A stretch of DNA of 64,000 bases from Notolepis coatsorum (lineage: Eukaryota; Chordata; Actinopteri; Aulopiformes; Paralepididae): NCBI GenBank assembly GCA_963971535.1, contig OZ020592.1, positions 124,890,140 through 124,954,139 of the forward strand, read 5' to 3'. Within the stretch, counting starts at the first letter, position 1; each line of letters starts with the position of its first letter. This document shows, piece after piece, positions 26,883 through 50,048 of this stretch. Both the position numbers and the translations under genes were made by a program. The notes below the pieces were generated by a model that did no database searches, had not been told where the DNA came from, and was given only the letters and a program-made list of their open reading frames with translations.

Positions 26883-27161
26883 ATGACGGCCGTGCACCCC
26901 GCCGGGACCGGCCCCCCCGCCGCCGGCGCTGTGGCGGGGGGCTCCGAGGGGTCGGGGGGGGTCCGCGGGCAGCACGTCCGGGAGCGGCTCGGCCTCGGGG
27001 GGCGGCGCCGGGGGCACGGTGGGGGTCGGAGGTCAGAGCTACACCACCCGCTGCAGCCGCCAGGACAGCTCCGACGTCAACACGGACGACGAGGGAGGAG
27101 CCCCGCCGCGCCGCCTGACCCCCCTGGAGAGACTGCACCTGGACATGTGTCAGGACGAGAG
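26883..27161 (+). CDS. NIM1K: NIM1K exon 1 (N-terminal region)
   Basis: This encodes the regulatory N-terminus preceding the kinase domain. The start MTAV matches the known NIM1 N-terminus. The second half reads QSYTTRCSRQDSSDVNTDDE, then PPRRLTPLERLHLDMCQDER, clearly the segment just before the kinase domain. The two halves lie in different frames. The switch falls in a Gly/Ser-rich stretch with a run of eight G at 26954-26961, and one G fewer would make the frame continuous and the whole coding length divisible by three. A sequencing or assembly error in the homopolymer is the simplest explanation, and a real lesion cannot be excluded. The exon ends ...GAC GAG AG with donor GTGGGA at 27162. 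The residue 93 codon (Arg) is split with exon 2. Very GC-rich. Confidence 0.85.
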
Positions 27162-27176
27162 GTGGGAGGAGCTTAA

Positions 27177-28060
27177 CACTTTGATTACCAGCCACGCGGT
27201 GCACCTTACCCCCGTTGAATGCCACCACCCACTTCAATGATGGAGCTCTTATATTTGCAAACGCATAAACTATGTCTTAAATTATGGCTATGTGTCTAAT
27301 CTGGCCGTCGCTTATCAATGACTTGTTTGCGGTCAACATTGTCGAAACGGATTGTTTTTTAATCAGTTCATTTCCGTTTTATACCATTTTGAAAAACCCT
27401 CGTTTTGTTGAAAGTTTTTCAGAAAATATAAAGATTCTGTGATAAACGCCCTTTACTGGAATATTCTGGAATACACAATTTTTCTGCCTATTTATGAATC
27501 GTTTTCAAATAAACGCTAGATTATCGATAGTATATGTGTACTTATGCACGCTATATAAGCGGGCTGAAAAATCGAATCTCTTATTTCCTGATCACACACA
27601 TATGGCACATGCTGATATCTCTGTGAAAAAAGTTCTGATTATCCTAAGACTGGTAAAATAGATTCCTTACCTCAGATCAGATGTTCTCCAAAAAGATTAT
27701 TCCAATTCCTGATCGCCATTCCAAATATCGATCGCGTTTATTGATCCAGCGCTGGGTACTGTGAATATATATTCCATGCTGTTTTGCGGCTCGGCAATGA
27801 CTTGGATCCCCTCGGGTGGCTTGCCCGATAAGTAAAATGAGGAAGCTGGATTCCCCCTCCCCCCCCCCCCCCTCATGTGTTTCATTCAGTCTAATCCAAT
27901 GGGGTGCAGTACAACAGGGAGAGAGTTTGCAGAGAGAGTTTGCAGCACTAACGTGAGACTAGATTGATGAAATATGAATTCAAATCGTGAGATTTATCGT
28001 CGCTGGCACTCAATGGTTGGCATGAACCAACGATAAATCTCGTCGCTGGCACTCAAAGTG
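27177..28060. mobile_element. piggyBac-like MITE (copy 1) 15 bp inside intron 1
   Basis: The left end is TTAA (27173-27176) then CACTTTGATTACCAG. The right end is CTGGCACTCAAAGTG followed by TTCT, a decayed TTAA. The body matches 31670-32561 (same strand) and 56593-57460 (inverted), for example TATGGCTATGTGTCTAATCT and CGCTTATCAATGACTTGTTT. No transposase is present. It starts 15 nt after the NIM1K exon 1 donor, using the TTAA that belongs to the junction-derived repeat unit. Confidence 0.82.
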
Positions 28061-28084
28061 TTCTTCTTTCGTGTAACGTCAGAG

Positions 28085-28312
28085 GTCCAACTCCGTATCT
28101 TGTAGCCATGCCCTTAACTCTGGTCCCACATCAAAGAGGCTGGCTTCCGAGGGTGGTTTGTATAGGGGGCAGATGGTCAGGATGTGGTCAACAGTCTGCT
28201 CAGGGTCTCCACACTCGCATGCAGCGCTGTCTGCCAGGCCCCACTTCTTTAATGATGCTTTAAAGCGACCAACCCCAGATCTTAAACGGTTCAGCAGAAC
28301 CCATTGCCGGCG
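28085..28312 (-). mobile_element. LINE C-terminal fragment, antisense
   Basis: The minus strand reads LNRLRSGVGRFKASLKKWGL, then CECGDPEQTVDHILTICPLY and LRAWLQDTELDL, the zinc-knuckle-like C-terminus (C-x-C...H...C) found in several LINE clades. About 75 codons, no RT domain. Confidence 0.75.
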
Positions 28313-28315
28313 TGG

Positions 28316-29016
28316 ATGTACCAGGACGAGAGGTGGGAGGAACTTAATGTGTCAGGATGAGAGGTGGGAGGAGCTTAATGTGATGTGGGAGGCGCTTACT
28401 CTGCCAGGAGAGGTGGGAGGAGCCTTAATGTACCAGTATGATAGGTGGGAGGAGCTTAATGTACCAGGATGAGAGGTGGGAGGAGCTTAATGTACAGTAC
28501 AAGAGGTGGGAGGAGCTTAATGTGTCAGGACGAGAGGTGGGAGGAGCTTAAATGTGCCATGTGAGAGGTGGGAGGGGCTTAATGTGTCATGATGAGAGGT
28601 GGGAGGAGCTTAATGTGTCATGATGAGATGTGGGAGGAGCTTAATGTGTCATGACGAGAGGTGGGATGAGCTTAATGTGTCAGTGTGAGCGGGTGGGAGG
28701 AGCTTAATGTACCATGGTGGGAGGTGGGAGGAGCTTAAGGTGTCAGGATGAGGGGTGGGAGGAGCTTAATGTGTCGGGATGAGAGGTGGGAGGAGCTTAA
28801 TGTGCCAGTATGAGAAGTGGGAGGGAGCTTAATGTACCACATGGAGAGGTGGGAGGAGCTTAATGTACCACAGGGAGAGGTGGGAGGAGCTTAATGTGTC
28901 CGTACGAGAGGTGGGAGGAGCTTAATGTGTCAGTACGAGAGGTGGGAGGAGCTGAATGCACCAGGATGAGATGTGGGAGGAGCTTAATGTACCAGGATGA
29001 GAGGTGGAAGGAGCTA
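28316..29016. repeat. Intron 1 minisatellite derived from the exon 1 splice junction, about 23 units of 31 bp
   Basis: The unit consists of GTGTCAGGACGAG then AGGTGGGAGGAGCTTAAT. The unit at 28520-28551 is identical over 32 nt to 27145-27176, which spans 17 nt of NIM1K exon 1 and 15 nt of intron 1. Most units keep the donor GAG/GTGGGA. Units vary mainly in the exon-derived part (CAGGACGAG, CAGGATGAG, CATGATGAG). The array ends in GCTAACCCTAACCCC. Confidence 0.95.
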
Positions 29017-29976: not shown

Positions 29977-30089
29977 GGTGGTCCGCGAGCTCACGGTGGG
30001 CAGAAGGATCGGGTTCTACAAGGTGCGTGGGGAGATCGGCTGTGGAAACTTCTCTCACGTCAAGCTGGGGATTCACACGCTCACCAAAG
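29977..30089 (+). CDS. NIM1K: NIM1K exon 2 (kinase N-lobe, glycine loop)
   Basis: The acceptor TGATTGCTGACAG ends at 29976. The exon supplies the last base of Arg93 and codes VVRELTVGRRIGFYKVRGEI then GCGNFSHVKLGIHTLTK. This holds the ATP-binding glycine loop GEIGCGNFSHV (residues about 111-121), the first strands of the kinase N-lobe. Known NIM1 reads VVREITLGKRIGFYRIRGEI at the same place, so orthology is clear. The donor is GTGAGG at 30090, a consensus site, and Asp131 is split across the next junction. It is in frame with exons 3 to 5. Confidence 0.96.
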
Positions 30090-31097: not shown

Positions 31098-31297
31098 NNN
31101 NNNNNNNNNNNNNNNNNNNNNNNNNNNNNNNNNNNNNNNNNNNNNNNNNNNNNNNNNNNNNNNNNNNNNNNNNNNNNNNNNNNNNNNNNNNNNNNNNNNN
31201 NNNNNNNNNNNNNNNNNNNNNNNNNNNNNNNNNNNNNNNNNNNNNNNNNNNNNNNNNNNNNNNNNNNNNNNNNNNNNNNNNNNNNNNNNNNNNNNNN
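31098..31297. other. Assembly gap, 200 N
   Basis: Exactly 200 N. The size is probably nominal, and the gap abuts an AG repeat. Confidence 0.99.
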
Positions 31298-32561: not shown

Positions 32562-32691
32562 TTAATGACCTTTCTGTATTCTGTTACCTCCGCTGTTTTA
32601 TTCCTCTGTATTAATCATTTAAAAGCACATTCTTGACATCAGCCATTTGAGCTCGTTGCCCGTGAAGCATGTTGATATTTACACCTGTTTA

Positions 32692-36792: not shown

Positions 36793-36914
36793 ACAAAGTA
36801 GCAATAAAGATCCTGGACAAGACCAAGCTGGACCAGAAGACCCAGAGGCTGCTCTCCAGAGAGATCTCCAGCATGGAGAAGCTCTACCACCCCAACATCA
36901 TACGCCTCTATGAG
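36793..36914 (+). CDS. NIM1K: NIM1K exon 3 (kinase N-lobe, catalytic Lys and helix C)
   Basis: The acceptor CATCCCCAG ends at 36792. The exon completes Asp131 and codes [20 protein letters not shown] then [20 protein letters not shown]. It holds the VAIK motif with the ATP-anchoring Lys (residue about 136) and helix C with the salt-bridge Glu (about 154, in SREI). It is almost identical to known NIM1. It ends TAT GAG with donor GTACAG at 36915, phase 0. The last 27 nt include CACCCCAACATCATAC (36888-36903), the core of the minisatellite that fills the first third of the next intron. If intron 3 were retained, the frame would stay open for nearly 190 more codons. Confidence 0.97.
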
Positions 36915-36920
36915 GTACAG

Positions 36921-39672
36921 CACCCCAACATCATACAGACAGCACCCCAACATCATACAGACGGCACCCCAACATCATACAGGCAGCACCCCAACATCAT
37001 ACAGACAGCACCCCAACATCATACAGACGGCACCCCAACATCATACAGGCAGCACCCCAACATCATACAGACAGCACCCCAACATCATACAGCACCCCAA
37101 CATCATACAGCACCCCAACATCATACAGACAGCACCCCAACATCATACAGCACCCCAACATCATACAGACAGCACCCCAACATCATACAGCACCCCAACA
37201 TCATACAGACAGCACCCCAACATCATACAGACAGCACCCCAACATCATACAGACAGCACCCCAACATCATACAGACAGCACCCCAACATCATACAGACAG
37301 CACCCCAACATCATACAGACAGCACCCCAACATCATACAGACAGCACCCCAACATCATACAGCACCCCAACATCATACAGGCAGCACCCCAACATCATAC
37401 AGACGGCACCCCAACATCATACAGACAGCACCCCAACATCATACAGACGGCACCCCAACATCATACAGCACCCCAACATAATACAGGCAGCACCCCAACA
37501 TCATACAGGCAGCACCCCAACATCATACAGACAGCACCCCAACATCATACAGACGGCACCCCAACATCATACAGACAGCACCCCAACATCATACAGACGG
37601 CACCCCAACATCATACAGCACCCCAACATAATACAGCACCCCAACATAATACAGGCAGCACCCCAACATAATACAGGCAGCACCCCAACATCATACAGAC
37701 GGCACCCCAACATCATACAGCACCCCAACATCATACAGACAGCACCCCAACATCATACAGACAGCACCCCAACATCATACAGCACCCCAACATCATACAG
37801 ACAGCACCCCAACATCATACAGACGGCACCCCAACATCATACAGCACCCCAACATCATACAGGCAGCACCCCAACATCATACAGACAGCACCCCAACATC
37901 ATACAGACAGCACCCCAACATCATACAGCACCCCAACATCATACAGACAGCACCCCAACATCATACAGCACCCCAACATCATACAGACAGCACCCCAACA
38001 TCATACAGACGGCACCCCAACATCATACAGACAGCACCCCAACATCATACAGACGGCACCCCAACATCATACAGACAGCACCCCAACATAATACAGCACC
38101 CCAACATCATACAGACAGCACCCCAACATAATACAGGCAGCACCCCAACATCATACAGGCAGCACCCCAACATCATACAGACAGCACCCCAACATCATAC
38201 AGACGGCACCCCAACATCATACAGACAGCACCCCAACATCATACAGACAGCACCCCAACATCATACAGACAGCACCCCAACATCATACAGACAGCACCCC
38301 AACATCATACAGACGGCACCCCAACATCATACAGACAGCACCCCAACATCATACAGACAGCACCCCAACATCATACAGACAGCACCCCAACATCATACAG
38401 ACAGCACCCCAACATCATACAGACAGCACCCCAACATCATACAGACAGCACCCCAACATCATACAGACGGCACCCCAACATCATACAGCACCCCAACATA
38501 ATACAGCACCCCAACATAATACAGGCAGCACCCCAACATAATACAGGCAGCACCCCAACATCATACAGACAGCACCCCAACATCATACAGACGGCACCCC
38601 AACATCATACAGCACCCCAACATAATACAGCACCCCAACATAATACAGGCAGCACCCCAACATCATACAGCACCCCAACATAATACAGGCAGCACCCCAA
38701 CATCATACAGGCAGCACCCCAACATCATACAGACAGCACCCCAACATCATACAGACAGCACCCCAACATCATACAGCACCCCAACATCATACAGACAGCA
38801 CCCCAACATCATACAGACAGCACCCCAACATCATACAGACAGCACCCCAACATCATACAGACAGCACCCCAACATCATACAGACGGCACCCCAACATCAT
38901 ACAGCACCCCAACATAATACAGCACCCCAACATAATACAGGCAGCACCCCAACATAATACAGGCAGCACCCCAACATCATACAGACAGCACCCCAACATC
39001 ATACAGACGGCACCCCAACATCATACAGCACCCCAACATAATACAGCACCCCAACATAATACAGGCAGCACCCCAACATCATACAGCACCCCAACATAAT
39101 ACAGGCAGCACCCCAACATCATACAGGCAGCACCCCAACATCATACAGACAGCACCCCAACATCATACAGACAGCACCCCAACATCATACAGCACCCCAA
39201 CATCATACAGACAGCACCCCAACATCATACAGACAGCACCCCAACATCATACAGACAGCACCCCAACATCATACAGACAGCACCCCAACATCATACAGCA
39301 CCCCAACATCATACAGACAGCACCCCAACATCATACAGACAGCACCCCAACATCATACAGCACCCCAACATAATACAGGCAGCACCCCAACATCATACAG
39401 CACCCCAACATAATACAGACAGCACCCCAACATCATACAGCACCCCAACATAATACAGGCAGCACCCCAACATCATACAGCACCCCAACATCATACAGCA
39501 CCCCAACATCATACAGACAGCACCCCAACATCATACAGACAGCACCCCAACATCATACAGACAGCACCCCAACATAATACAGACAGCACCCCAACATAAT
39601 ACAGACAGCACCCCAACATAATACAGACAGCACCCCAACATAATACAGACAGCACCCCAACATAATACAGAC
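36921..39672. repeat. Intron 3 minisatellite derived from the end of exon 3, about 130 units of 22 or 18 bp
   Basis: Every unit contains CACCCCAACATCATAC, the exact sequence at 36888-36903 in exon 3, followed by AGACAG, AGACGG, AGGCAG (22-bp unit) or just AG (18-bp unit). Some units read CATAATAC. The first intronic copy begins 6 nt inside the intron, straight after the donor GTACAG. Higher-order blocks of several units recur. It is open in all forward frames over long stretches and not coding. Confidence 0.97.
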
Positions 39673-39756
39673 AGCACACCTGAGACTAGCAGACCTGACG
39701 TAGCTTGTGTCTTCACCCAGTGTAGGCTGGATATCTGGCTGCTGTCTTGGTCCCTC
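39673..39756. other. Short unique island between two arrays
   Basis: About 84 bp of non-repetitive sequence (ACCTGAGACTAGCAGACCTG and onward) separates the exon-derived array from the pyrimidine-rich array. Confidence 0.7.
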
Positions 39757-49090: not shown

Positions 49091-49117
49091 TTATTGTCTC
49101 ACATCCAACATGTCTTC

Positions 49118-49161
49118 TCCATCCTCCCTCCCCCGCAGCACGACAACAGCATCATCCACCA
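49118..49161 (+). repeat. Duplicated exon 5 acceptor with first codons (decoy)
   Basis: CTCCCTCCCCCGCAG plus CACGACAACAGCATCATCCA copies the real acceptor and start of exon 5 at about 49251-49287 with one substitution in the exon part (AAC for CAC). The decoy exon would begin at 49139, 127 bp upstream of the real start, so its use would shift the frame. Confidence 0.9.
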
Positions 49162-49225
49162 CCACCATCATCCACCACCACCATCACCACCACCACCACC
49201 ACCATCACTACCACCACCATCACTA
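49157..49225. repeat. (CCA)n imperfect microsatellite
   Basis: CCACCACCATCA-type triplets grow out of the HH codons at the end of the decoy exon copy. Confidence 0.9.
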
Positions 49226-49265
49226 GTACTAACCCTAACCCTTCTCCCTCCTCCCTCCCCCGCAG

Positions 49266-50048
49266 CACGACCACAGCATCATCCACCGCGACCTGAAGGC
49301 GGAGAACGTCTTCTACACCTGCGGCTCCTGCGTCAAGGTGGGCGACTTCGGCTTCAGCACGCTCAGCCGGCGCCACGAGACGCTCAGCACCTTCTGCGGC
49401 TCCCCGCCATACGCCGCGCCCGAGCTGTTCCGGGATGAGCACTACCTCGGCGTCTTCGTGGATGTCTGGGCACTCGGCGTCATCCTGTTCTTCGCCGTGA
49501 CGGGCACCATGCCCTTCCGCGCCGACACCGTGGCCAAGCTGAAGCGCTGCATCCTGGAGGGCGCCTACGTCCTGCCCGCCTGGGTGCCAGAACCCTGCCG
49601 GCGCCTCCTCCGCGCCATCCTGCAGCCGCTGCCGGCCGAGCGCTGCGGCGTGGAGCAGATGATGGGCTGCGAGTGGCTGCTGCCCGTGGACTTCCCCCGC
49701 GCCACCGAGCCCTTCCGGCTGGAGCCGTCGCACCTGGCCGCGGCGGAGGAGGAGGAGGAGGAGGAGGGCGGCGCGCGGCTGGAGGAGGACGCGCTGGAGG
49801 TGAAGCGAGCGCTGGAGGCACTGGGGATCACCTCCGAGCACATTCTGAACAACCAGGGCAAGGACTGCCGCAGCTCCATCACGGGCGTGTACCGCATCCT
49901 GCTGCACCGTGCGCACAAGAGGCGCGCTGTGGAGAGCGCACCCGTGGCGGTGCGCGTGGCCGGCGTGCCGAGCACGCCTAGCAAAAAGGAGCGGCTGAAG
50001 GCGTACCGTGGCCTGCGGCACACATCCAAACTCTGTGTCATCCTGTGA
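49266..50048 (+). CDS. NIM1K: NIM1K exon 5 (kinase C-lobe and C-terminal tail)
   Basis: Last coding exon, 260 codons plus TGA at 50046-50048. HDHSIIHRDLKAENV carries the catalytic HRD loop (Asp about 229, Lys 231, Asn 234). GDFGFSTLS carries the Mg-binding DFG (247-249). LSTFCGSPPYAAPELF carries the activation-loop Thr (about 262) and APE. DVWALGVILFFAVTGTMPFR is helix F and the region after it. The tail has a Glu run (AAAEEEEEEE, from GAG repeats), then VKRALEALGITSEHILNNQG and SSITGVYRILLHRAHKRR, as in known NIM1. The protein ends RHTSKLCVIL, and CVIL has the form of a CaaX prenylation motif. NIM1 is an AMPK-related Ser/Thr kinase. The exon is very GC-rich, with CpG-rich third positions unlike the surrounding introns. 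Confidence 0.97.
   Translation, partial: HDHSIIHRDLKAENVFYTCGSCVKVGDFGFSTLSRRHETLSTFCGSPPYAAPELFRDEHYLGVFVDVWALGVILFFAVTGTMPFRADTVAKLKRCILEGAYVLPAWVPEPCRRLLRAILQPLPAERCGVEQMMGCEWLLPVDFPRATEPFRLEPSHLAAAEEEEEEEGGARLEEDALEVKRALEALGITSEHILNNQGKDCRSSITGVYRILLHRAHKRRAVESAPVAVRVAGVPSTPSKKERLKAYRGLRHTSKLCVIL

Follow-up and report, generated by a model that had tools for sequence, protein, structure and literature searches.

How does a splice junction come to be repeated some two dozen times within the very intron that it opens? The question is posed by NIM1K of the fish Notolepis coatsorum, which lies in a 64,000-nucleotide (nt) stretch of contig OZ020592.1 (positions 124,890,140 to 124,954,139 of the forward strand; assembly GCA_963971535.1), hereafter called the window. 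Intron 1 of this gene holds a minisatellite whose 31-bp units combine the end of exon 1 with the start of the intron. Very probably, a junction-spanning stretch of 31 bp was amplified from exon 1 itself, the array grew neutrally, and it was later split by a miniature inverted-repeat transposable element (MITE) and a long interspersed nuclear element (LINE). The features concerned are as follows, in window coordinates.

26883..27161, + strand: NIM1K exon 1 (coding portion under the present reading), with its donor at 27161/27162
27145..27175, + strand: unit 1, the functional boundary of exon 1 (17 nt) and intron 1 (14 nt); matches the unit at 28520-28550 without a difference
27173..28060, no strand assigned: TTAA (27173-27176) followed by a MITE-like element (27177-28060); its ends are inverted, and copies are scattered over the genome
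28061..28315, − strand: antisense 3′ end of a LINE (a retrotransposon without long terminal repeats); 39 other places 98-100% identical
28316..29016, + strand: 23 further minisatellite units, each with GT at the donor position
29977..30089, + strand: NIM1K exon 2; end shifted by one base for phase

The exon 1 junction and its copies in intron 1

The gene is NIM1K; the best named matches of its assembled protein are serine/threonine-protein kinase NIM1 from many fishes. Exon 1 ends in ..CAGGACGAGAG at 27161, and intron 1 starts at 27162 with GTGGGA, opening with GTGGGAGGAGCTTAA. Exon 2 resumes with GGTGGTCCGCGAG at 29977, giving the joined peptide QDER/VVREL, and this assignment of the junction agrees with the phase of exon 2 and with the homologs.

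The 32 nt at 27145-27176, 17 of them from exon 1 and 15 from intron 1, recur without a mismatch at 28520-28551, exactly as the original prediction had stated. Sixty first-order resamples of the exon stretch matched the array over at most 12 nt, compared with the 32 observed. Splitting the array by hand gave 23 units, mostly of 31 bp, at 28316-29016, and Tandem Repeats Finder (TRF) reported 22.7 copies of period 31 with 82% matches at 28322-29015, in line with the predicted number of about 23. The GT is kept in 23/23 units, the letters from −3 to +6 (GAG/GTGGGA) are exact in 15/23, and those from −2 to +6 are exact in 16/23. The claims that the repeat is built from the NIM1K exon 1 splice junction and that most of its donors are identical to the true one are thereby borne out.

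A search for the same repeat family at unrelated loci, proposed as a test of the prediction, also came out in its favor: the 18-mer GAGGTGGGAGGAGCTTAA, which contains exon and intron letters, has 11 exact occurrences in the 3.42-Gb assembly, 11/11 at NIM1K, so the family is not scattered. The shorter 15-mer GTGGGAGGAGCTTAA occurs 35 times in the assembly, 16 times at the NIM1K locus and 19 times elsewhere; those of the other loci that were read have different flanks or different repeat units.

The exon end itself is conserved. Among 120 listed homologs, the corresponding place could be read by pattern in 78 fish and other NIM1 proteins, which show MCQDER (36/78) or MCQDDR (29/78), together 65/78; in the remaining 13, the letters differ or the place was misread. 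This conservation makes exon 1 the likely source of the intron 1 units and the array the derived sequence. As a separate observation, the ATG frame of exon 1 (26883-27161) is offset by one base from the conserved QDER frame, and the exon contains runs of 6-8 G; the offset is an assembly error or a frameshift.

Variation among the units is uneven. Cells that differ from the majority letter number 76/336 at −17 to −4, 8/72 at −3 to −1, 2/192 at +1 to +8, and 7/144 at +9 to +14. The changes are concentrated at the exon-derived positions −13 to −6, and the intron-derived half is nearly invariant, with a conserved block that reaches +14 and takes in −17 to −14 of the following unit.

Two transposons between unit 1 and the other units

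The original prediction places junction-derived units in intron 1, which holds. Its geometry is to be revised: the junction is itself unit 1, and a MITE and a LINE stand between it and the other 23 units. Of 9046 first-look candidates for 27177-28062, 40 were scored and gave 44 matches, the long ones being 82-92% identical. Copies elsewhere start and stop at TTAA with differing flanks; TTAA is present at both ends in 22/29 fetched copies (26 at the left end, 25 at the right). The ends of the window element are inverted repeats, alike at 17/20 positions. On the evidence of copies flanked by TTAA on either side and ending in inverted repeats, the element at 27177-28060 is a TTAA-targeting MITE, which we take to be piggyBac-like. 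Its left TTAA (27173-27176) falls inside unit 1, and the 32-nt identity thus ends where the transposon starts. Its right TTAA is broken up by the LINE.

Of 1166 candidates for the LINE fragment, 40 were scored, and these include 39 further places with 98-100% identity. In all but one of the 39, the match ends at 28316, within one base of the first base of the array. The reverse-strand translation of 28061-28315 resembles the C terminus of a reverse transcriptase. The fragment is a recent insertion. Comparison of the long MITE matches (82-92%) with those of the LINE (98-100%) suggests that the MITE is probably the older of the two.

Together, the MITE and the LINE make up the whole of the 1.14-kb gap between junction and array, and the 31-bp phase is uninterrupted when both are removed. 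This indicates that the array began at the exon and that the gap came later. Judged from the DNA, the true exon 1 donor is unit 1 of the array.

Proposed origin of the array

The order of events that we infer is the following. A 31-bp stretch across the exon 1/intron 1 junction would have been duplicated in tandem, producing a minisatellite that started at the exon, of the “mirage” type described below. The 5′-most copy would have remained the working donor, and splicing at this first donor would remove every other copy. With mRNA and protein unchanged, the array would have been free to grow without cost. The insertions would have come later: a TTAA-targeting MITE entered the TTAA of unit 1, and a LINE fragment followed at the far end of the MITE, shifting the 23 other units 1.14 kb downstream. 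The identity, the phase, both insertions with their edges, the conservation of the exon end, and the uniqueness of the repeat core in the assembly are directly visible at the locus. Two more junction-derived repeats in the same gene and donor-derived ones in four other genes (see below) indicate that the process occurs in this genome.

Some observations weigh against this history. The uninterrupted array and its single-copy ancestor are reconstructed from the DNA of one assembly, one of the 39 LINE matches extends 9 bases beyond the rest, and the uneven variation among the units (76/336 compared with 2/192) goes beyond plain neutral decay.

The repeat is probably harmless. It had been suggested that the decoy donors could give rise to exon-extended transcripts; the frame extended past the exon 1 donor meets a stop at 27238, and useful transcripts of this kind are unsupported.

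Alternative explanations

The rival that survives best, improbable as it is, holds that selection maintains the array for its series of decoy 5′ splice sites, which would bind U1 and thereby slow or alter NIM1K splicing. The 15/23 units with the letters of the true donor and the near-invariance of +1 to +8 fit such a series, as does the finding that 0/98 other GTs in intron 1 score as high as the true donor in a weight matrix. Scoring used donor frequencies and the 5′ end of U1; over the window outside the array, 153/3852 GTs score at least as high as the true exon 1 donor. The block that U1 reads at a donor is, however, shorter than the conserved block of the units, which continues to +14 and into the next unit. 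The minisatellite in intron 3 of the same gene lacks a donor GT, and use of a decoy donor would lead into the in-frame stop already mentioned. Titration of U1 by the array was considered by scoring donor strength and unit conservation, and was rejected with the finding that the conserved block is not donor-shaped; this proposal is unsupported.

It is very unlikely that the junction was copied once to a place ∼1.1 kb away and amplified there, such that exon and array were never contiguous. The present distance of 1.14 kb would suit such a templated insertion, but the entire gap is transposon sequence with recognizable ends, and the units are in phase across it. Amplification from the exon itself, followed by two insertions, is the reading that we retain.

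That a minisatellite existed first and gene conversion then transferred its sequence to the exon 1 end is scarcely credible: the shared 32 nt alone give no direction, but the 65/78 NIM1 proteins with MCQDER or MCQDDR at the exon end already disfavor it. An assembly artifact as the cause of array or gap, to which the 200 N in the window (the first at 31098) and the frame break of exon 1 next to G runs might point, has a negligible chance, given units that differ from one another by substitutions and indels and gap edges that coincide with the ends of these elements at other genomic places, although the copy number could still be wrong.

Other junction-derived repeats in NIM1K

Eight junctions of NIM1K were tested for local copies. 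Besides donor 1, the donor of exon 3 and the acceptor of exon 5 are associated with the following features.

36793..36914, + strand: exon 3; 36888-36903 is CACCCCAACATCATAC, the core of the intron 3 array
36915..39677, + strand: minisatellite from the exon 3 donor, 18/22-bp units; 131 copies by TRF
49114..49166, + strand: second copy of the exon 5 acceptor junction, comprising tract, CAG, and start of the exon; 49/53 identical to 49241-49293
49241..49293, + strand: true exon 5 acceptor junction; exon 5 from 49266
49266-50048, + strand: exon 5; acceptor junction at 49241-49293

The intron 3 array lies directly 3′ of the exon 3 donor. Its core, CACCCCAACATCATAC, belongs to exon 3, where it codes for HPNII. 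Removal of GCCTCTATGAGGTAC between two TAC of the exon 3 end plus donor yields exactly the 18-bp form, which is present 26 times; the commonest 22-bp form is present 55 times. The 18-bp unit may have arisen from the exon 3 end and donor along this path. The duplicate of the exon 5 acceptor is located 127 nt upstream of the true one, with a CCA-rich tract between the copies.

At donors 2 and 4 and acceptors 2, 3, and 4, local matches span 8-11 nt, the same as at random sites (median match 10 nt; among 400 random sites lying outside repeats, 9.5% have a match of at least 16 nt). The exon 4 acceptor was also considered as the source of a 19-bp × 313 array and rejected, the 11-nt match being equal to the resample maximum. 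Overall, 54% of NIM1K from start to stop (26883-50048) is tandem repeat by TRF, compared with 5.8% of random genomic pieces. The telomere-like motif TAACCCTAACCC has two sites in the window, one where the intron 1 array ends (29014) and one immediately upstream of the tract of the true exon 5 acceptor (49229); both are at repeat edges, and the motif is present elsewhere too, for example in the flanking locus L040.

Donor-derived repeats elsewhere in the genome

A search of the assembly with part of the array returned 14 first-look candidates, and 10 places outside NIM1K were read. The matched array begins at a splice donor in 3/10, namely in genes that resemble APPL1 (L076), MYH10 (L082), and NPEPPS (L086), with the exons identified from PDB sequence matches. 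In a pair of loci on C21 (L080 and L083), the matched array is on the acceptor side of an exon that was recognized by eye, and a different array, with a 35-bp period, begins at the donor of this exon. In L077, L081, and L087, the 5′ edge of the array shows no exon, and the stretches fetched for L084 and L085 end short of that edge. Since a search with the array favors donor-like units, enrichment cannot be shown by it.

The junction from −10 to +10 recurs downstream with at most two mismatches in NIM1K intron 1, the APPL1-like, MYH10-like, and C21 genes, and a kinase gene (L092); such a recurrence is absent in the NPEPPS-like gene and in NIM1K intron 3. In the APPL1-like gene (C24:81475189-81476032), the exon donor starts a 32-bp × 8 array. 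On its intron side (GTAGGAGGAGCTTAATGT), this array is similar to the one in NIM1K, although the two genes are unrelated. The two C21 loci are ∼150 kb apart and contain the same exon; their acceptor-side array has 29-bp units.

A dispersed donor-associated motif was considered and rejected: the 18-mer GTGGGAGGAGCTTAACCC is found, with one mismatch allowed, at only 17 places in the assembly, which leaves no wide family. In L045 and L070, the 15-mer GTGGGAGGAGCTTAA likewise sits at what look like exon ends (exons judged by eye); the L045 peptide has no PDB match. Both ends are followed by GTGGGAGGAGCTTA(A/G)CCC, which in L045 is present twice and runs into CTAACCC repeats. One further 15-mer match, in L073, lies inside a LINE-like open frame (..LKWEELNIISSV..), again by eye.

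Splice donors as possible seeding sites

It is doubtful that 5′ splice sites are favored birthplaces of minisatellites in this fish. If they were, G-rich donors (AG/GTRGGAGG..) would start tandem duplications, splicing would hide the copies, and introns would grow; instances would be NIM1K introns 1 and 3, the APPL1-like and MYH10-like genes, the unnamed C21 gene, and the kinase gene L092. We examined a sample of kinase exons, comprising 20 of 136 matches picked before their DNA was seen (no stops, open frame of at most 165 amino acids, main contigs, in score order); two C35 matches that fit these rules are missing from the 20. L089 has no clear donor, and L093, L094, and L098 are near copies of each other.

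Visual inspection within 300 nt shows a duplicated donor junction in 1/20 kinase exons (L092). Among random 20-mers, 44/450 recur with two mismatches or fewer inside 1300 nt, a longer range than in the exon sample. Kinase donors are thus not enriched for such duplications, in a sample too small to exclude enrichment. Between 100 and 300 nt beyond the end of the match, tandem repeats cover 24% in 18 loci, with L094 and L098 excluded because they are paralogous copies, and 31% in all 20; in 232 random pieces, which are flanks of MITE copies, they cover 5% (resampling P 0.0006 for 24% against 5%). In L093, L094, and L098, a 31-35-bp array built of GGCAGTGAAAGGGTTAACC units comes after each kinase exon; a related sequence, TTAACCCTTTCACTACCACAC, is present in the window at 32689.

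Comparison with known systems

The original prediction regarded a splice junction turned into a tandem repeat as unusual. Minisatellites that span exon–intron boundaries are, however, a named class (PMC3087553, PMC4526556), and further cases exist in this gene and genome. A description of the NIM1K intron 1 repeat itself was not found among titles and abstract beginnings of the open-licence literature, with queries that did not contain the gene name.

In amphioxus, tandem repeats across exon–intron boundaries of Adh3 and the globin genes BflGb6 and BflGb9 are called mirages. They affect 5′ and 3′ boundaries, carry AG/GT in many units, and are unstable in length, and reverse transcription PCR suggests that splicing is undisturbed (PMC3087553). 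The NIM1K array resembles them in its boundary-spanning units, many of which keep AG/GT. Its unit unites letters from the exon and the intron side of a genuine junction (17 + 15 nt), and its copies adjoin the real boundary once the two transposon insertions are discounted. By these features of the DNA, it is a member of the mirage class. The amphioxus units measure 10-72 bp in Adh3 and ∼150-160 bp in the globin genes, compared with 31 bp in NIM1K; the NIM1K host is a fish, and transposons separate unit 1 from the rest.

Three further systems share part of this arrangement. In human IFI6 (6-16), a minisatellite likewise offers several copies of a splice donor, and downstream units act as donors to give variant mRNAs (PMC4526556), whereas in NIM1K use of a downstream donor is predicted from the sequence to meet the stop at 27238. 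Human duplicated genes contain variable tandem repeats at exon–intron boundaries, minisatellites of ∼30-bp units like that of NIM1K, that change paralog structure and can form new introns (PMC2812944); in contrast, the structure of the NIM1K gene is unchanged. The Rogers model of intron gain, in which AGGT segments are duplicated in tandem (potato RdRp and ATP2A1 are examples), also involves a duplicated stretch with splice signals, but yields a new intron (PMC4974935), whereas in NIM1K an existing intron enlarges.

Set beside these systems, NIM1K offers a clear vertebrate example of a minisatellite that grew out of a splice junction, with the seed in place, the units in phase, and transposons as later time markers. 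It suggests why such repeats may grow harmlessly, as splicing at the first copy would conceal the remainder, and provides a natural test of how the spliceosome selects one donor among two dozen near-identical ones. With three junction-derived repeats in one gene, it would extend the mirage class from amphioxus to a fish.
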